A stretch of DNA of 21,558 nucleotides from a virus. The translations under genes were made by a program, and so were the position numbers. The notes beneath the pieces were generated by a model. The model was not told the DNA's origin. It worked only from the letters and a program-made list of their open reading frames with translations, and did not search any database. Where the stretch lies: the IMG/VR virus record IMGVR_UViG_3300032224_000874, positions 1-21,558 of that record, one strand, 5' to 3'. Below, piece after piece: positions 2,461 to 20,334 of this stretch (its first letter is position 1; every line of letters starts with the position of its first letter).

Positions 2461-3408
2461 ATGGCGACAGTAATAAGATTCACTGAACCTTATGTAGCTA
2501 CAAGCAAGTTCTACAACGGCGTACCAGTAGACCGTACGGCAACAGGTTCTGGACTTGGAACACAGACATCCACCGGTCTGCATGTATCTCTACGCACTGC
2601 AACTGGTTCTGGAACTGGAACACAAACAGCAGTAGGTGCAAGAGTTAAGCAGGTAACTGCTACTGGTTCTGGAGCTGGAACAACCAATGGTGGAGCAACA
2701 AAGTTGCACATATCTCCACGTACTGCAACCGGTTCTGGAACGGGAACACAAACAGGAATTGGCGCAAGGTTAAACGCTAAAACTGCTAGTGGGTTTGGAA
2801 CCGGAACAAATAATGGCGGAGCATCTCGCCTTATTACTCGTTATAGATCCGGAAGCACGTCAGCAGGAACCGGATCTTCGTCTTCTTTTAAGATCATAAT
2901 TGGAATTAGATATGCAACAGGTTCTGGGGCTGGATCGCAGACATCCATTGGTTTGCATGTATCTCCACGTACTGCAACTGGATCTGGAGTTGGATCTCAA
3001 TCTGTAATAAGTTTCTCAACAAGGTTTAGAACAGCAACTGGATCTGGTTCATCTAGCCAAGCTTCAAATGGTCTGCATACTTCTCCAAGAAACGCAACTG
3101 GATCTGGGCTTGGTGTGACTGGTGGCGATGCAGTCTGGATAAAGTCTCACATCTTCCGTGTTCCAAATACAACTAATTATTCATGGGCTGAACTTTTTAA
3201 CGATAACCCAAGAGACAGAATTTTCTCACACCTTTCACAAGGAATAAGAGTAGAGAACTTGTATCGCCTGTCTGACGGATCATATACAATTAATGACCCG
3301 GGTTACGGTCGTTCAACGAGACAGTACCTTGGTGGTCATAACATATTCCTAAGTGACGAAGAGATAACCGAACTGACTGCAGCTGGATACGGAGCATACA
3401 TATCGTGA
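2461..3408 (+). CDS. Repeat-rich fibre-like structural protein
   Basis: This encodes 315 residues in three parts. Residues 1-25 (VIRFTEPYVATSKFYNGVPVD) form a lead peptide that is also found, in variant form, at the start of the 619-residue tail protein at 5362. Residues 26-220 are about ten copies of a 20-residue unit whose core is TATGSGxGTQ, with partners such as TGLHVSxR between. Two units are diverged (ASGFG near 109, RSGSTSAGTG near 129). Residues 222-315 form a non-repeated C-terminal domain (WIKSHIFRVPNTTNYSWAELF to the end) with LSDEEITELTAAGYGAY at its close. A Gly/Ser/Thr repeat of this kind suggests an extended beta rod, and I recall similar TATGSGTG repeats in actinophage virion proteins. 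It is probably a fibre or appendage; the exact attachment is unknown. Confidence 0.65.
   Translation: MATVIRFTEPYVATSKFYNGVPVDRTATGSGLGTQTSTGLHVSLRTATGSGTGTQTAVGARVKQVTATGSGAGTTNGGATKLHISPRTATGSGTGTQTGIGARLNAKTASGFGTGTNNGGASRLITRYRSGSTSAGTGSSSSFKIIIGIRYATGSGAGSQTSIGLHVSPRTATGSGVGSQSVISFSTRFRTATGSGSSSQASNGLHTSPRNATGSGLGVTGGDAVWIKSHIFRVPNTTNYSWAELFNDNPRDRIFSHLSQGIRVENLYRLSDGSYTINDPGYGRSTRQYLGGHNIFLSDEEITELTAAGYGAYIS
2536..3120 (+). repeat. Tandem 60-bp coding repeats (20-residue TATGSG units)
   Basis: Units recur at about 60-bp spacing, marked by variants of GCAACTGGTTCTGGA. Codon choice drifts along the array, from GGTTCT-type units early to GGATCTGG-type units late, which suggests old duplications followed by divergence or local conversion. 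Residue starts of ATGSG are 27, 47, 67, 89, 152, 172, 192 and 212, with two degenerate units between. Confidence 0.85.
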
Positions 3409-7997: not shown

Positions 7998-9302
7998 ATG
8001 CAAATTCTTGCTCAAGGTCCATACGGTGGGCCACCAACAACAGCTCCAACATCTTTAAGTGCTGTACCAACAAACGTTGATGTAGCTATTTCATTTACTG
8101 CACCATCCAATGATGGTGGTTTGACAATAACAAACTACGAGTACTCGTTTAATAACTCAACATGGACTGCTCTTTCCCCAGCTGATGCTATTACACCAGT
8201 CACTGTTGGTGGTTTAACACAAAACACCGGGTACACCGTATACCTTAGAGCAGTAAACGCTGCTGGTTCAGGCCCAGCATCTACTGGTGTTTCGTTTACA
8301 ACTGCTGGGGTTCCAACTGGAACAGCAACAATCAGTTCAGTTACTGTTGGAACAACAACAGCTACGGTTACATTCTCAGTAGCAGCTGGTGGCGGTGCGA
8401 TAACTGGGTATGATCTGTATGTTGCCAACCAAACAAATGCTTGGAACAATACAACGGCAAGTCCAATATCTGTTACTGGACTAACCTCAAACAGCTATTA
8501 CGTTTTTTATGTAAGAGCAAAAAATGCTTATGGTGTTGGTCCACAATCAGCTGGTGTTGGTGCTACAACAAACCCAACATTTATTGTTGCATCAGGTGGA
8601 TCAACTGTTGACTACGTAAGTGGTTCATACACGTATAGAGCTCATACGTTTACTGGATCAAGCACATTTACAATTAGTAGTGCCGGTTCATTCCCAACTG
8701 TTGATGTTCTCATTGTAGCTGGAGGTGGCGGCGGTGCAGGAGATAGAGGTTCTGGTGGTGGTGGAGGTGGTTTCCGTCAACTTTCATCTCAGTCTATTTC
8801 TGCAACTTCATACACTGTTACCGTTGGCGGTGGTGGTTCTGCTTGTGGAACTTGGAACGCAGGTGGAGGATCTGGTGGGAACTCACAGTTTGGTGGATTG
8901 TTCTCCACTGGAGGCGGTGGTGCCGATCAGTTTTATGGTGGTGCAAAAAAAACTGGTGGGTCAGGTGGGGGTACTAGATATTCTCCAGCTGCAGCAGGAA
9001 ACATTGGTGGATACAGTCCAGTAGAAGGTTATTCCGGTGGTGTTCATAACACATGGGGTGGTGGTGGAGGCGGTGCTGGTAGTGCTGGACTAGTAAACAC
9101 ATATCCTGCAAACTCTGCTGGTGGTTCTGGTGCATATAATGCTTGGGGAAATAACAGTAACGAGTATTTTTCACCAGGTGGAAATAACCATACTAGTGGG
9201 ACTTCAGTAAATGGATACTACGGTGGTGGTGGAAAGGGTGTTAATCCAGGAGGACAAGCAGGAGCACAAGGAAAAGTTGTAGTCAGGTACAGGATTTCAT
9301 AA
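7998..9302 (+). CDS. Adhesin-like tail fibre: two FN3 domains plus glycine-rich tip
   Basis: This encodes 434 residues. FN3 domain 1 spans about 16-103 (APTSLSAVPTNVDVAISFTAP, ending YTVYLRAVNAAGSGPAS). FN3 domain 2 spans about 106-191 (ending YYVFYVRAKNAYGVGPQS). A linker with TYRAHTFTGSSTFTIS leads to VDVLIVAGGGGGAGD and a C-terminal domain made largely of Gly runs with Ser, Asn and Tyr, closing GKVVVRYRIS. FN3 pairs followed by a glycine-rich domain of the LIVAGGGGG type are typical of phage fibre tips and of surface-binding proteins. ATG 7998 has no convincing Shine-Dalgarno site (only CGGAAA about 13 nt away) and lies one codon past an in-frame amber, so re-initiation or readthrough from the previous gene is likely. 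Confidence 0.8.
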   Translation: MQILAQGPYGGPPTTAPTSLSAVPTNVDVAISFTAPSNDGGLTITNYEYSFNNSTWTALSPADAITPVTVGGLTQNTGYTVYLRAVNAAGSGPASTGVSFTTAGVPTGTATISSVTVGTTTATVTFSVAAGGGAITGYDLYVANQTNAWNNTTASPISVTGLTSNSYYVFYVRAKNAYGVGPQSAGVGATTNPTFIVASGGSTVDYVSGSYTYRAHTFTGSSTFTISSAGSFPTVDVLIVAGGGGGAGDRGSGGGGGGFRQLSSQSISATSYTVTVGGGGSACGTWNAGGGSGGNSQFGGLFSTGGGGADQFYGGAKKTGGSGGGTRYSPAAAGNIGGYSPVEGYSGGVHNTWGGGGGGAGSAGLVNTYPANSAGGSGAYNAWGNNSNEYFSPGGNNHTSGTSVNGYYGGGGKGVNPGGQAGAQGKVVVRYRIS

Positions 9303-9670
9303 TGGCAACATTTGCTCGATTAGATGAAAACAATGTCGTTATTGATGTAATAAAAGTTAGCAACGAAGATTGCGCTGGTGGTAATTTTCCATCCTCAGAA
9401 TCTATAGGACAAGAATTTATTAAGTCAATTGGTCTTGAGGGAAACTGGATTCAAACATCTGTATCAGCTGAATTTAGGGGAAAACATGCTGGAATAGGTG
9501 ATAAGTATTCTCCAACACTTGATGCGTTTGTACCGGATTATGGATCTACAAAACCATACCCATCATGGATTCAAAGAGATGGGGAAGTTGGTTGGTTCCC
9601 ACCTGTTCGTATTCCAGATGTAGAAGGCTGGTGGCAATGGGATGAGGAAGCAGGAGAATGGACTCGTTAA
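9302..9670 (+). CDS. Hypothetical tail-associated protein
   Basis: This encodes 122 residues whose ATG shares its A with the TAA of the fibre gene (TAATG). The sequence runs MATFARLDENNVVIDVIKVSNEDCAGG, then GQEFIKSIGLEGNWIQTSVSAEFRGKHAGIGDKYSPTLDAFVP, then PYPSWIQRDGEVGWFPPVRIP and ends WWQWDEEAGEWTR. I recall this exact layout (ATFAxLDENNxVxxVxxV, GxWxQTSxxxxFRxxxAGIGxxYDxxxDAFxP, PxPSWxLxxxxxxWxxPxxxP, YxWDExxxxW) in many phages of aquatic bacteria, always near tail fibre genes. No function is established to my knowledge; a fibre chaperone or small tail component is the natural guess. Confidence 0.75.
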   Translation: MATFARLDENNVVIDVIKVSNEDCAGGNFPSSESIGQEFIKSIGLEGNWIQTSVSAEFRGKHAGIGDKYSPTLDAFVPDYGSTKPYPSWIQRDGEVGWFPPVRIPDVEGWWQWDEEAGEWTR

Positions 9671-10203
9671 TACATTGTTCTTTTCCAAGGTCGGGTAATA
9701 ATTATCTTCAAGCAATACTGGAAAAAGCTCTTCCACATTCAAATCCTATTTGGTTGATGCATAGGATTAAAGACCTTACTATAAACAACAATGTAGTAAG
9801 CATCATAAGAAACCCTCTTGACTGTGTCCCGTCTTGGACTGCGTTCAACCCGGAAAAACGAGATGGTATGGAGGAAAGAAATCTTGAATGGTACATCGCA
9901 TACTGTAAAACGTACAAAGAAAATTTAGGAAAGATACTTGTCCTTTCTTTTGAACAATTAATTTCTAATCCGATCAAATGCTTAGATAAAATATCTAATC
10001 AATATGGATATGAACCACCGTTGTTTTCTACAAAAGAAGACCTTGACAAACAGTTCGATAACGATTCAAATTTTATTGGCAGAACACCAGATGATATCAG
10101 GGAAACTTTTGCATCAATAAAAGAAATCACAATGTCGTCCCCTTCATTCAATCAGGCAAACGAATTGTTTATGGAAATAAATGAGCAAGTTAAAATTCAA
10201 TAG
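9658..10203 (+). CDS. Sulfotransferase-family protein (short)
   Basis: This encodes 181 residues whose start overlaps the previous gene by 13 nt; GAGGAAG at 9644-9650 is 7 nt upstream. Residues 8-18 (SFPRSGNNYLQ) match the 5'-phosphosulfate loop of PAPS-dependent sulfotransferases (PRSGNTWL). Residues 46-60 (VVSIIRNPLDCVPSW) match the 3'-phosphate-binding motif (RNPxDxxxS). Later, KILVLSFEQLISNPIKCLDKI fits the conserved 'vlxYExLxxdPxxxlxxI' helix region. Between them LMHRIKDL may hold the catalytic His. At 181 residues it is shorter than usual family members (roughly 250-300), so only the core fold is present. The gene is clearly A+T-richer than its neighbours (many AAA, AAT, ATA, AGA codons), a sign of recent transfer. 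The substrate, perhaps a surface glycan or fibre, is unknown. Confidence 0.8.
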   Translation: MDSLIHCSFPRSGNNYLQAILEKALPHSNPIWLMHRIKDLTINNNVVSIIRNPLDCVPSWTAFNPEKRDGMEERNLEWYIAYCKTYKENLGKILVLSFEQLISNPIKCLDKISNQYGYEPPLFSTKEDLDKQFDNDSNFIGRTPDDIRETFASIKEITMSSPSFNQANELFMEINEQVKIQ

Positions 10204-11608
10204 CAGATGGTTAATACTTGTTCCAGCTATTGGGTTTGCGTTATTTGCTAAACCAGCTAAAGCCGATGTTCTTGGTGACTGGACATTTAGCCAGTCCAAA
10301 AACTGTGGTGGATCTGTTGAGGTAGTTAACAACACTATTATTCTTCACGGTCCAGATAACAATGGTTGTTCTGGTCAAGCTCACTGGGTAAAGATCGAAA
10401 CAACTGTCCCTGCTGGTGTGAACACAGTTGACTTTACATGGTCATATCAAACCAACGATGCACCGTATTATGACCCGCCACAGTATGCGGTAAACGGTGC
10501 GTACGTGATGCTCGGAACAATGTGGCAGCAAACTCAAAGTGGGTCAGCATCTATTTCTGTCCAAGAAGGTGATGTGTTTACGTTTCGTCAGTACTCAATT
10601 GACACCTGTTGTGCCCCCGGTCATCTGACTATTGCTAACCTTTCTCTATGGGAATTTACAACAACATCCACGACTTCAACGACGACTACTACTACTACTG
10701 TCCCGTCAACGACTGTCCCTGCCATAGTCCCGACTACTACGACAGTTCCAGAAACTACGACAACAAGTACGACTACTACAACCTCGTCGACGACAAGTAC
10801 TACAACGACAAGTACAACGGTGGTTTTACCGGATACCTCAACTAGTTCTTCTTCCGTACCCCAAACAACATTGCCAGAATTAGTACCGACCACGACACTA
10901 CTGCCAGAAATTCCAACATTTATACCTCCTCAAATATACGAGCCAGAACCGACTGAGCTTTCCGTTCCTGAAGAGATCGTTGAAGTACCGACAGGCACCA
11001 CAACGACAGTAGTAGAGGAGCCCATCCAAGAGGAGATGCCTCTCGAAGAAACAACCACAACAACTGAGCTAGTTCCAGAAACATATCCTGATACTACCGA
11101 GGAAACTACTACTTCCACAACAGCTCCAGATTTAGTATCAAATTTAGATCCAGATGTTCCGTTGACCGACGATCAAGTTACATCAATAATTGAGCAAGCT
11201 GAAAGCGCTGAGGCCCTTGTTGCGATTCTTGAACAGCTTGCACCCGAACAAGTAGCGCAAGTTGTTGATCAGATCCTTGCCGATGAACCGACGCAGGAGC
11301 AGGCAATAGCGCTTGCTACATCTCCCGAGGTGCTTGCTGCAGTTAGCGGTGAGCAGGCAGCCCAGATCTTTGAAGCTCTCGATGTTGCAGAACTTAGCGA
11401 CGCACAGACAGAACAGCTGATTGCTGCAGTACAGGGCGCTTCAGCTGAGGTGCGATCTAGTTTTGAAGACAAGATCGATATCTTCAAGAATGCCCTTGAC
11501 ACCTACGTACCGCTTGGATCAAACATTCCAGTGGGTACAAGGCGCACATTGATTGCCGTAACTGTGGGGATAACCCTCGCGGCAGCAGGTACTAGAATTA
11601 GACGTTAA
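10181..11608 (+). CDS. Secreted, Thr-stalked, membrane-anchored surface protein
   Basis: This encodes 475 residues; the start overlaps the sulfotransferase gene by 23 nt. Residues 1-28 form a signal peptide (basic start, hydrophobic LILVPAIGFALFA, AKA cleavage site). Residues 29-158 look like a beta-sandwich domain with four cysteines (42, 63, 143, 144). Residues 160-315 are a Thr/Ser/Pro stalk (long Thr runs, VPxTTVP, ETTTT), then an acidic Pro/Glu part. Residues 325-435 are helical with repeated LxxEQ patterns (LTDDQV, LAPEQV, LSDAQT). Residues 456-470 (TLIAVTVGITLAAAG) form a likely transmembrane segment followed by RIRR. Such Thr stalks are common in actinobacterial exported proteins. It lies between the sulfotransferase and the holins, so it probably acts on the infected cell envelope rather than in the virion; this is inference. 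Confidence 0.7.
   Translation: MSKLKFNSRWLILVPAIGFALFAKPAKADVLGDWTFSQSKNCGGSVEVVNNTIILHGPDNNGCSGQAHWVKIETTVPAGVNTVDFTWSYQTNDAPYYDPPQYAVNGAYVMLGTMWQQTQSGSASISVQEGDVFTFRQYSIDTCCAPGHLTIANLSLWEFTTTSTTSTTTTTTTVPSTTVPAIVPTTTTVPETTTTSTTTTTSSTTSTTTTSTTVVLPDTSTSSSSVPQTTLPELVPTTTLLPEIPTFIPPQIYEPEPTELSVPEEIVEVPTGTTTTVVEEPIQEEMPLEETTTTTELVPETYPDTTEETTTSTTAPDLVSNLDPDVPLTDDQVTSIIEQAESAEALVAILEQLAPEQVAQVVDQILADEPTQEQAIALATSPEVLAAVSGEQAAQIFEALDVAELSDAQTEQLIAAVQGASAEVRSSFEDKIDIFKNALDTYVPLGSNIPVGTRRTLIAVTVGITLAAAGTRIRR
10658..10830 (+). repeat. Low-complexity ACG/ACT/ACA tract encoding the Thr stalk
   Basis: The segment is almost entirely threonine triplets mixed with TCC/TCG/AGT serine codons. It is short-period and impure, so it also opens spurious frames on both strands (long Val runs in reverse, Tyr/Asp runs in another + frame). 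Such tracts commonly change length by slippage. Confidence 0.8.
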
Positions 11609-11769
11609 TGAGAAAGATCTTTGATTATCTAGCTGAGAACTCCTGGACGTATGCCGGTACTGGCATGGTCCTAATCACCCTGTCTGGCCCCACTTTACGC
11701 CAAGCTGTATGGATTACTGGTGTAACATTGGTGTTGCATTCTGTACTCACATTAAGTAAGAAAGACTAA
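11608..11769 (+). CDS. Small two-helix membrane protein, putative holin
   Basis: This encodes 53 residues; ATG 11608 shares its A with the previous TAA (TAATG) and it stops at 11767-11769. The sequence starts with a charged MRKIFDYLAENSW, then has two short hydrophobic segments (about 14-28, YAGTGMVLITLSG, and about 34-49, VWITGVTLVLHSVLTL) and ends SKKD. Two membrane spans, a charged tail and placement two genes before the endolysin suggest a holin or holin partner that would make the membrane lesion at lysis. No family assignment is possible from motifs. Confidence 0.6.
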   Translation: MRKIFDYLAENSWTYAGTGMVLITLSGPTLRQAVWITGVTLVLHSVLTLSKKD

Positions 11770-11771
11770 CT

Positions 11772-12023
11772 ATGGCAAAGCTCCAAAACATCATCTTCCG
11801 TATCTTCGCATTGTTCGGTTCATCCGCATTGGCAGCTGTTGCCGGTGGTGCATTGATCGGTGTGCAGTTGTGGAAGTCTGCGGCTTTAGCAGGAATCATG
11901 GCATGCGCCCAAGTAATCGAGAAGCTCCTCCGCTTCAGTGTTGACGGTTCACTCACCAAAGAAGAAATTGAACTTGCGTTCACTGGTGCAGTAAAGCCAC
12001 AGCCTGAAGCAGCAGCTGAGTAA
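11772..12023 (+). CDS. Putative holin
   Basis: This encodes 83 residues. A hydrophobic N-terminal half contains two likely membrane helices (about 5-29, IIFRIFALFGSSALAAVAGGALIGV, and about 36-54, SAALAGIMACAQVIEKLL) with a short turn (QLWK). It then has an acidic, Pro/Ala-rich tail (SLTKEEIELAFTGAVKPQPEAAAE). The pattern recalls the small holins found beside lysins in actinophages (r1t-like group), but I cannot confirm the family by eye. The stop overlaps the endolysin start (TAATG), which argues for joint expression. It starts 2 nt after the preceding small membrane gene. Confidence 0.65.
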   Translation: MAKLQNIIFRIFALFGSSALAAVAGGALIGVQLWKSAALAGIMACAQVIEKLLRFSVDGSLTKEEIELAFTGAVKPQPEAAAE

Positions 12024-12562
12024 TGTCGCTGCCAATAGTACCGATCAAGTACTGCGAGCACATCAAAGGAAAGAAGCCAAGCGAGATAACACCAGCTATG
12101 CTGCGCAAGTTATCCACAGGTGGACAGATGCACCATTGTGCTGCCCGTGCCTTCGAAGCTTTAGTTGCAAAGGCAAAGGAAGATGGAGTGGTTATCAAAC
12201 CGACTTCAGCCGGTGACACATTCCGCAGTATCGACCAGCAGCTCAAAGGATTCCTTCAGCGCTACAGCGAGACCGATACTGGTACCGGAAAGACACGCAC
12301 ATACAAAGGTAAGAAGTGGTTTCTCAAGCCAGGCAACGCCCCTCTTGCAGCACCTGAGGATGATCCGAACAAGTGTTCGCGTCATATGCTTGGCATTGCT
12401 GTCGATGTTGCTAACGCTAATGACAAGATACTTGAGTGGATGAAGCTCAACATTGCAGCTTTTGGATTCTCTTGGGAAGTTGTGCCTGAAGAACCATGGC
12501 ACATCCGCTGGGTAGACAGCACACCATCGCAAGCTGTTCTTGACTTCGAGGCCAAGGCATAA
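12023..12562 (+). CDS. Endolysin, M15 (VanY/D-Ala-D-Ala carboxypeptidase) peptidase
   Basis: This encodes 179 residues. The zinc peptidase motif S-x-H-x-x-G-x-A-x-D is present as SRHMLGIAVD, with H121 and D128 as ligands. The second motif, PEEPWHI, gives E157 as likely base and H160 as third ligand. The preceding part has the usual R-S-x-x-x-Q type element (DTFRSIDQQ, about 65-73). M15 endolysins cut peptide stems or cross-links of peptidoglycan. There is no signal peptide, so the protein would need the adjacent holins for export. There is no separate wall-binding domain of recognisable type, although the first 50 residues (with AMLRKLSTGGQMHHCAARAFEALVAKA) could position it. Its length is normal for a single-domain M15 lysin. 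Confidence 0.85.
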   Translation: MSLPIVPIKYCEHIKGKKPSEITPAMLRKLSTGGQMHHCAARAFEALVAKAKEDGVVIKPTSAGDTFRSIDQQLKGFLQRYSETDTGTGKTRTYKGKKWFLKPGNAPLAAPEDDPNKCSRHMLGIAVDVANANDKILEWMKLNIAAFGFSWEVVPEEPWHIRWVDSTPSQAVLDFEAKA

Positions 12563-16955: not shown

Positions 16956-17477
16956 ATGAACAGATTTACTCGGTGCTTTATTGCACCCCTACTCTGCCTC
17001 GGAGTTATGACAGCAGAAGCGAAAGCAGCTGGAGCTCCGGAGCACCTAAGCTCACCTGCCCCTGTGGGGAAACATGCAGATGTGAGGTCATTGACGACCC
17101 CAATCCAATTCAAACATGGGGATATCTCATGGTTGCCGGAGCTGGCAAGAGCAGCTGGCTGGAAGGATGGGCAAATCAAAAAGCTTGGACAGATAATCCT
17201 GAGGGAATCAGGCGGTTGCCCGAACCGCAGAGGTGGTGACATTGTGGACTCTAGCTGCAATGTAACTGGTGTATCCGAATGGACGCACAGATCTGACAGC
17301 GGACTGTTGCAGATCAATGGTGTGCACTGGAAGAAGGATCACCCACAGTACGCAGGTCTTGTGTGCAAGCAGATGAAGGTGTGTGAGCAGAGTAAACTAC
17401 TTGACCCGCTTACAAACCTAAAGGCCGGGCGACTCCTATTTGAAGTAGCGGGATGGGGGCCCTGGTCCACGAACTGA
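16956..17477 (+). CDS. Secreted lysozyme-like (SLT) transglycosylase
   Basis: This encodes 173 residues with GGGAGGGAA just upstream. Residues 1-24 form a signal peptide (MNRFTRCFIAPLLCLGVMTAEAKA, cleaved after AKA). The catalytic domain begins near 55: GQIILRESGG with E84 as general acid, SGLLQINGVHW (115-125) as the conserved GLxQIN loop, LLDPLTNLKAGRLLFEVAGWGPW (148-170) with the N-x-x-A and the WxPW end. These are the classic landmarks of goose-type/SLT transglycosylases, which cut the glycan between MurNAc and GlcNAc. Four further Cys (88, 101, 137, 143) could form disulfides outside the cell. It sits in the early DNA-metabolism region, far from the M15 endolysin, so it may serve a different purpose, such as wall remodelling during infection. 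Confidence 0.8.
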   Translation: MNRFTRCFIAPLLCLGVMTAEAKAAGAPEHLSSPAPVGKHADVRSLTTPIQFKHGDISWLPELARAAGWKDGQIKKLGQIILRESGGCPNRRGGDIVDSSCNVTGVSEWTHRSDSGLLQINGVHWKKDHPQYAGLVCKQMKVCEQSKLLDPLTNLKAGRLLFEVAGWGPWSTN

Positions 17478-17483
17478 GGACTG

Positions 17484-17786
17484 ATGGCAAATGAGAAACG
17501 AAGGGAAGTTTCGATGGACATTCTTAATGAATGGAATCTAACCAATCAGAGGTTCGATTGGATGGATGAAGCAAGGTGCAAAGGGATGACACACATGTTC
17601 TTCCCGGAGCAAGGCGATGAAAACAATTATGTAGAAAGAGCTAAAGCTGTGTGCGCTACATGTTCAGTCAAGGATGACTGTCTTCAGTTTGCATTGGACA
17701 ACTGTTTCGTCTACGGTATTTGGGGTGGCATGAGCGCACGCCAACGCAAGACACACAAGGCGCAACTACGAAGGGCAAGACGATGA
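17484..17786 (+). CDS. WhiB-like iron-sulfur transcription factor
   Basis: This encodes 100 residues. Four cysteines in WhiB order (C32, C57, C60, C66; CxxC then 5 residues to the last) would hold a 4Fe-4S cluster. WMDEARCKG, FFPEQGD, ERAKAVCATC and the GIWGG turn (78-82) followed by basic SARQRKTHKAQLRRARR complete the signature. WhiB proteins are restricted to Actinobacteria and their phages, where they bind sigma factors and adjust host or phage transcription. Start: ATG 17484 has GAGGA only 3 nt away; ATG 17514 (MDILNEW) has AAGGGAAG 5 nt away and is a real alternative giving 90 residues. It stops in an ATGA overlap with the next gene. Confidence 0.93.
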   Translation: MANEKRREVSMDILNEWNLTNQRFDWMDEARCKGMTHMFFPEQGDENNYVERAKAVCATCSVKDDCLQFALDNCFVYGIWGGMSARQRKTHKAQLRRARR

Positions 17787-19593: not shown

Positions 19594-20334
19594 ATGGAAG
19601 CAATACCTAATACCCAACCTCTTGCCCCTTTGGGCGAGTGGGAACAAGCAGACTTTGCCTTAGCTAATGGCTTAGGGCGAGTCCTATTACACGGTGAGCC
19701 CGGTACTGGTAAGACCTATTACGGTCTCCACTATCACCTCAACGACAAGCCATCGTTCCGCCTAGTCTGCAACGACGAGATGTCTGAGGGTCATATCCTT
19801 GGCACTTGGAAGCAGGAGACTAACGACAACGGTCAGGTGGTTACTAAGTTCCATGAAGGCCCAGCAGTAGAGGCTTGGCGCACTGGTGGTCGCTTAGTCA
19901 TTGACGAGATCAACATGGCTAATAGTGCAGTGACTGGTGTGCTTATGTCCATGATTGACACTAGCCATAGTTCACGGTGGCGTAACCCTCAGACTGGTGA
20001 GATCGTTACTCCTCACCCTGAGTTCTCAGTCGTGGCAACTATGAACGGTGAGCCTGATGACTTGACCCGTGCTATCCGTGACCGCTTAGTGGTTCAACTA
20101 GAGATCAACACACCACACCCTGACGGTGTTATGTCGTTGCCTGAGTACCTTAGGGAGATTGCCCTATCGTTCGGTAGTCGTAGCGGTAAGGATCGCTACT
20201 CACTACGCAACTTCGTAGAGTTCGCGCAACTCTATAGCAAGACTGGCAACTTACAGCACTCAGCCCAAGTGTGTCTGCCTCGTATCCAAGAGACCCTTAT
20301 GGACACGATCCTCTTAGCAAAGGTGGAAGCATAA
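19594..20334 (+). CDS. MoxR/CbbQ-like AAA+ ATPase
   Basis: This encodes 246 residues with AAGGGAG at 19577-19583. Walker A GEPGTGKT (34-41), Walker B LVIDEI (101-106), sensor 1 VVATMN (146-151) and arginine finger region RAIRDRL (159-165) are all present. EGHILGTW (65-72) fits the region after strand 2 in MoxR/CobS-type ATPases. The C-terminal lid is short. Such ATPases usually remodel a partner protein together with a VWA-domain protein. The next two genes overlap or abut and may be the partner components. TTA leucine codons and CTTAG strings are frequent here and rare in the earlier genes, so this gene belongs to a compositionally different block. Confidence 0.85.
   Translation: MEAIPNTQPLAPLGEWEQADFALANGLGRVLLHGEPGTGKTYYGLHYHLNDKPSFRLVCNDEMSEGHILGTWKQETNDNGQVVTKFHEGPAVEAWRTGGRLVIDEINMANSAVTGVLMSMIDTSHSSRWRNPQTGEIVTPHPEFSVVATMNGEPDDLTRAIRDRLVVQLEINTPHPDGVMSLPEYLREIALSFGSRSGKDRYSLRNFVEFAQLYSKTGNLQHSAQVCLPRIQETLMDTILLAKVEA

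Follow-up and report, generated by a model that had tools for sequence, protein, structure and literature searches.

The locus analyzed here raises the question of whether two overlapping viral genes, one for a sulfotransferase (SULFO) and one for a Thr-stalked surface protein (THR), form a functional unit that changes the surface of the infected cell, as the original prediction had it. They lie in a viral record 21,558 bases long, referred to here as the window, which as a whole gave no megablast match to phage records. A WhiB-type regulator gene at 17484-17786 (+; 68.6 bits), which resembles those of actinobacteriophages, points to an actinobacterial host for the phage. The genes around the overlap are arranged as follows.

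7998..9302, + strand: glycine-rich tail-fiber-type protein with FnIII domains, at the left, in the fiber module (Pfam fn3, 61 bits; Gly_rich_2, 46.3 bits; phrog_2295 and tail phrogs)
9302..9670, + strand: G9302, a phrog_7759 protein behind the fiber and constant upstream neighbor of SULFO (E 5.6e-27)
9658..9670, + strand: G9302/SULFO overlap of 13 nt, kept in relatives (40-43 nt where the mechanically called start is longer)
9658..10203, + strand: SULFO, compact PAPS-type sulfotransferase, 181 aa (Pfam, 16-row alignment, model, fold matches)
10181..10203, + strand: SULFO/THR overlap, a generic junction (ORF coordinates, junction analysis)
10181..11608, + strand: THR, stalked surface-display protein, predicted to be exported, 475 aa (relatives, signal peptide, model)
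11608..11769, + strand: TMP53, a 53-aa membrane protein and THR partner that starts on the THR stop codon (phrog_29041; fusions to the C-domain)
11772..12023, + strand: holin-like small membrane protein (hydropathy 2.02; phrog_26427, annotated in PHROGs as nuclease), from sequence and position a putative holin
12023..12562, + strand: VanY-type peptidase, the likely endolysin (Pfam VanY, 40.8 bits)

The two ORFs do overlap as described, by 23 nt on the + strand, and this overlap is one link in a chain of tight junctions, given the 13 nt shared by G9302 and SULFO and the 1 nt (TAATG) shared by THR and TMP53. Such a layout makes it plausible that the genes are translated one after the other. In 12 SULFO loci, six G9302 loci, and L123, the stop codon of the upstream gene lies at the same place within the THR codons W-L-I, in another frame, and this embedding accounts for the final Gly that is common to non-homologous upstream proteins. 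In the window and in L045 the upstream gene ends a few codons before the W-L-I place. The overlap is a generic junction and no sign of a bond between SULFO and THR.

The occurrence of the two genes in related phages was assessed in contigs that are nearly all metagenomic and often fragmentary. Counts rather than frequencies are given, as sampling was non-random and some THR-only records may be incomplete: THR lies downstream of SULFO in 17 of the 23 loci with a visible upstream gene, from a set of 24 non-identical SULFO genes (two of the 17 are cut off after the THR head), and SULFO lies upstream of THR in 4 of the 46 loci with an intact upstream gene, from 49 non-identical loci recruited by a scan with the THR C-terminal part. 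The six SULFO loci that have no adjacent THR instead continue with a 2OG-Fe(II) oxygenase (L034, 72 bits), a second fiber set (L047), or other genes (L039, L048, L138, and L153). In the remaining THR loci the upstream gene is G9302 itself, a 2OG oxygenase, a different sulfotransferase (in L002 with 54.8 bits to Sulfotransfer_3, in L123 recognized by motif only), or a small cysteine-rich protein. The last type, found just upstream of THR in L022, L026, L029-L031, and L089, is 75-86 aa long and has CxxC pairs as well as a conserved GTTRPWD stretch. In nine records 36-92 kb long (G005-G009 and G014-G017), THR is present and SULFO is absent throughout. Each gene is thus found repeatedly at this site without the other, in both directions, an outcome that had been named beforehand as refuting the pairing.

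Divergence points the same way. Across 15 loci, the pairwise distances of SULFO are uncorrelated with those of the THR C-domain (rho -0.14, p 0.74) and of its N-terminal part (rho -0.09, p 0.65), while the distances of the two ends of THR agree with each other (rho 0.79); those of SULFO and G9302 are weakly related (rho 0.23, p 0.045, uncorrected for six comparisons). In favor of a joint action, in which SULFO would alter the infected-cell surface by sulfating host glycans or the stalk of THR (its sugars or its residues), the two genes adjoin and overlap in the window as they do in 16 other SULFO loci. We nevertheless regard it as highly improbable, since each gene occurs without the other, the junction is generic, and divergence is uncorrelated; in addition, a cytoplasmic PAPS enzyme would be hard to bring to sugars on an exported stalk, as different compartments are to be expected. 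The functional pairing that had been predicted is therefore unsupported, and we reject a SULFO-THR unit on the co-occurrence, junction, and distance evidence. Instead, we are rather confident that the window joins a fiber module and a surface-display module that are independent and exchangeable.

The identity of the first gene as a sulfotransferase was borne out. SULFO scores 28.1 bits against Pfam Sulfotransfer_1, over the gathering score of 22, and 23.6 bits against Sulfotransfer_3, under the cut-off of 27. Invariant residues in the 16-row family alignment are F9, R11, S12, His35, Arg51, Pro53, Ser59, and Trp60, of which the RS pair corresponds to the P-loop (the 5'-phosphosulfate loop), Arg51 and Ser59 to the 3'-phosphate motif, and His35 to a catalytic-type residue. 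The AlphaFold model (pLDDT 90, pTM 0.85) finds sulfotransferases throughout among the Foldseek matches listed, with prob 1.00 to SULTs, and its best VIA-align match is mycobacterial STF9 (Z 11.3, 170 residues aligned, rmsd 4.2 Å). Judged by Pfam score, motifs, and predicted fold, SULFO is a PAPS-dependent sulfotransferase. It shares with that group (PF00685/PF13469; the SULT, tyrosylprotein, and heparan sulfotransferase folds) the fold, the P-loop, the 3'-phosphate motif, and the conserved His, but differs in being only 160-181 aa long, in a much shortened stretch between the motifs, and in being tied to a phage fiber module. A hydrophobic signal was not evident in SULFO (best 17-aa hydropathy window 1.21), and dN/dS values of 0.08-0.22 in the four pairs that yielded a ratio indicate purifying selection. 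SULFO alone as query found no relatives in viral contigs, where they were recovered with the alignment as query, and tblastn against phage records gave none. The sulfotransferases of cyanophages S-SKS1, S-SRM01, and S-SCSM1 are phage-borne like SULFO but match the Sulfotransfer_3-type protein of L002 instead.

SULFO is best read as part of a fiber/host-range cassette. G9302 lies directly upstream in 22 of the 23 loci, the exception being L153, the most distant SULFO member (E 8e-13), and upstream of G9302, where visible, is a glycine-rich fiber-type gene. The G9302 alignment is too variable for scanning; in pelagiphage HTVC025P, cyanophage S-SSM5, and phage DSL-LC04, relatives of G9302 have fiber or 2OG-oxygenase genes nearby. 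This strict linkage makes a target within the fiber module the most likely one for SULFO, and we put the chance that SULFO does sulfate the fiber module at almost even. The fibers beside SULFO contain 4.0% Tyr vs 3.4% and do not differ in acidic residues (Asp/Glu), so that this simple composition test gives no clear support for tyrosine sulfation. In the fiber slot of two loci, L002 (4741-6005) and L034 (6001-7082), the gene immediately after a sulfotransferase, of a different type in each, encodes a 2OG-Fe(II) oxygenase, and hydroxylation and sulfation possibly work there in series. A literature search on phage-encoded sulfotransferases and fibers found nothing, and the terms lectin, surface, and sulfotransferase are absent from a paper on freshwater phages (PMC6802176). 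A sulfotransferase slot linked to fibers suggests that chemical modification of phage adhesins is possible.

The second gene encodes a protein with the following parts.

10181..10264, + strand: signal peptide, residues 1-28 (...AKPAKA/D; read from the sequence and conserved in 21 relatives)
10265..10654, + strand: head, residues 29-158, a jelly roll like those of carbohydrate-binding modules (model, Foldseek, VIA-align)
10655..11134, + strand: Thr/Pro/Glu stalk, residues 159-318, predicted to be disordered (48% T+S; pLDDT < 50)
11153..11515, + strand: helical C-domain, about residues 325-445, common to host proteins (pLDDT 80-93; profile matches, host genomes)
11534..11605, + strand: C-terminal (G)TRR...RIRR end with a marginal transmembrane segment (model helix 451-471 at low confidence)

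Of the architecture that had been predicted, the signal peptide and the Thr/Ser stalk (Thr makes up 62 of its 160 residues) stand, and the C-terminal anchor proved marginal on its own, with a best 17-aa Kyte-Doolittle window of 1.72, pLDDT < 50 from residue 458, and, in one subgroup, prolines in the transmembrane end. THR is under purifying selection (dN/dS 0.15-0.37 in pairs) and has no match to named families; ORF_12_N, DUF7438, and TAC were dropped as candidates, their scores being under their cut-offs. With THR as query 31 relatives were found; a whole-length alignment retrieved nothing from genome contigs, where the C-domain matched one MAG locus.

The top Foldseek matches of the head are CBM35, CBM16, CBM6, and similar modules, and VIA-align matches many CBMs at Z 7-9. 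The best VIA-align match is VesC (Z 11.6), a protease with such a jelly-roll domain, so that sugar binding by the head is a presumption. Among the Pfam models scanned, those of CBMs gave no match. By profile, 10 of 75 THR genes lack the jelly-roll head: L142 carries PA14 above the cut-off, L035 and L036 carry PA14 below it, L029 and L031 have another domain, and in L125 the ORF is just split. Relatives in BFVD are annotated with PA14, FnIII, and SUEL lectin domains. The THR heads are best read as swappable and of a binding type.

What anchors such heads appears from the gene that follows. The next gene after THR in 71 of 75 loci is TMP53 or the holin-like gene; where the latter comes first, a longer ORF call that overlaps TMP53 often conceals it. 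Phage DSL-LC01 encodes a 944-aa protein whose C-terminal part consists of the C-domain and then TMP53 (45 bits). Within the class to which the Acidimicrobiaceae MAG belongs, the C-domain profile matches 5 of 296 genomes, and within a single family of that class it matches 13 of 150 (E 8e-26 to 2e-41). In 12 host loci, TMP53 is found in the same ORF (8 of 12, four of these fusions matching weakly at 15.8-16.7 bits) or in the next small ORF (4 of 12). THR has both elements of this host-type anchor, the homologous helical C-domain and, in the next ORF, TMP53. Hence, as read from sequence, the partner of THR is TMP53, to which it is coupled in the window, fused in DSL-LC01, and fused or adjacent in all 12 host loci.

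The host proteins (L161-L165 and L170-L176) are encoded on Acidimicrobiia chromosomes and combine RCC1-like or other heads with Thr/Pro-rich stretches and the C-domain plus TMP53 anchor; we found no description of this surface-protein family. A prophage origin of the host loci is argued against by the similar neighbors of L161 and L162 and the metabolic neighbors of L054. The Acidimicrobiia proteins resemble THR in the signal peptide, where the start was read, in the Thr/Pro-rich stretch, and in the C-domain and TMP53 anchor, but differ in their heads (RCC1-like repeats) and in that the anchor is usually fused in one ORF. The DSL-LC01 protein (WJZ48438.1, annotated as hypothetical; PMC10611076) likewise shares the signal peptide, Thr stalks, and the C-domain with TMP53, but is longer, with several head domains and a fused anchor. 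The best reading of THR with TMP53 is a surface-display module of host type whose heads can be swapped. The homologous chromosomal proteins with the same anchor strengthen a role for THR at the cell surface, and its display on the infected cell, predicted from the signal peptide and membrane segments, is probable.

We now put forward a hypothetical mechanism in which the window contains the seam of two independent actinobacterial-phage modules, a fiber/host-range module to the left and a receptor-masking surface display to the right, a reading that as a whole we hold with a little less than even confidence. In the left module, a glycine-rich fiber gene and the phrog_7759 gene would be followed by an enzyme gene open to exchange. 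In the window this enzyme would be a compact PAPS-dependent sulfotransferase of the cytoplasm, most likely sulfating a component of the fiber module. In the right module, THR would be produced alongside the holin and endolysin, before lysis, and exported, and its 160-residue Thr/Pro stalk could cross a thick wall. The jelly-roll head would then be exposed while the end of THR lies in the membrane with TMP53, an anchor pair common to chromosomal Acidimicrobiia surface proteins. We propose that the head most likely binds a surface glycan of the same cell and covers the receptor, so that sibling phages would not be wasted on infected cells or debris. The signal peptide, the long stalk, the membrane end with its membrane partner, the swappable ligand-type heads, and the site before the holin and VanY genes together make a glycan-binding display that hides the receptor the most likely role; we advance masking of the phage's presumed glycan receptor tentatively.

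The comparison with phage T5 bears on this proposal. Its Llp is a phage-made outer-membrane lipoprotein that is made early, binds the protein receptor FhuA, and brings about superinfection exclusion (PMC9586334). THR is likened to Llp by proposed role only, as a phage-made protein of the envelope that keeps phages from adsorbing to infected cells or debris (PMC9586334), but would be stalked and wall-spanning with a CBM-like head, whereas Llp is a small lipoprotein, and we claim no sequence relation. Against masking, Llp and other known receptor-masking proteins are early products, while THR is among the presumed late genes; against glycan binding, jelly rolls also occur in non-lectins.

Three other roles for the right module must be weighed. 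The strict site before the holin-like and VanY genes and the coupling to a small membrane protein would suit a lysis accessory, in which THR and TMP53 tether or strain the envelope, or control the holin, as infection ends. The swappable binding-type heads fit display better, as do the chromosomal host homologues, beside which no lysis genes were seen in the stretches read, and we judge the lysis role somewhat unlikely. THR might also act in trans as an adhesin, its head sticking infected cells or debris to neighbors or particles and so bringing progeny near hosts; the head-stalk-anchor build and exchangeable heads are those of adhesins, but planktonic hosts would be sparse, and this role seems to us quite unlikely. 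The conserved signal peptide and an anchor common to chromosomal host proteins with membrane segments speak against THR being a virion component, for example a fiber or tail decoration, even though its gene comes just after the tail-fiber genes and many tail proteins have jelly-roll heads; such a placement is improbable. We therefore retain surface display on the infected cell as the role of THR with TMP53.

THR-type proteins are common in IMG/VR, with 524 confirmed stretches found by the C-terminal alignment, and the anchor they share with host proteins provides a testable idea of what phages of aquatic actinobacteria do to the infected-cell surface. A wider proposal, which we consider speculative and unlikely to hold in full, is that aquatic actinophages have captured a host anchor, the helical C-domain with TMP53, have split it where hosts have it fused, and use it ahead of lysis to present swappable glycan-binding heads on infected cells. 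In this proposal the enzymes of the adjoining fiber module, a 2OG oxygenase and a sulfotransferase that are likewise swappable and in some loci adjacent, would hydroxylate and sulfate the fiber and so set host range. Elsewhere in the window, a putatively exported lysozyme-like protein with a signal-like N-terminus (16956-17477, +; SLT_3, 24.8 bits, just under the cut-off of 27) is a possible second lysin besides VanY, a 315-aa protein (2461-3408, +) without a Pfam family contains many TATGSGxGTQT-like repeat units, and an AAA_5 ATPase (19594-20334, +; 71.3 bits) is MoxR-like by eye.
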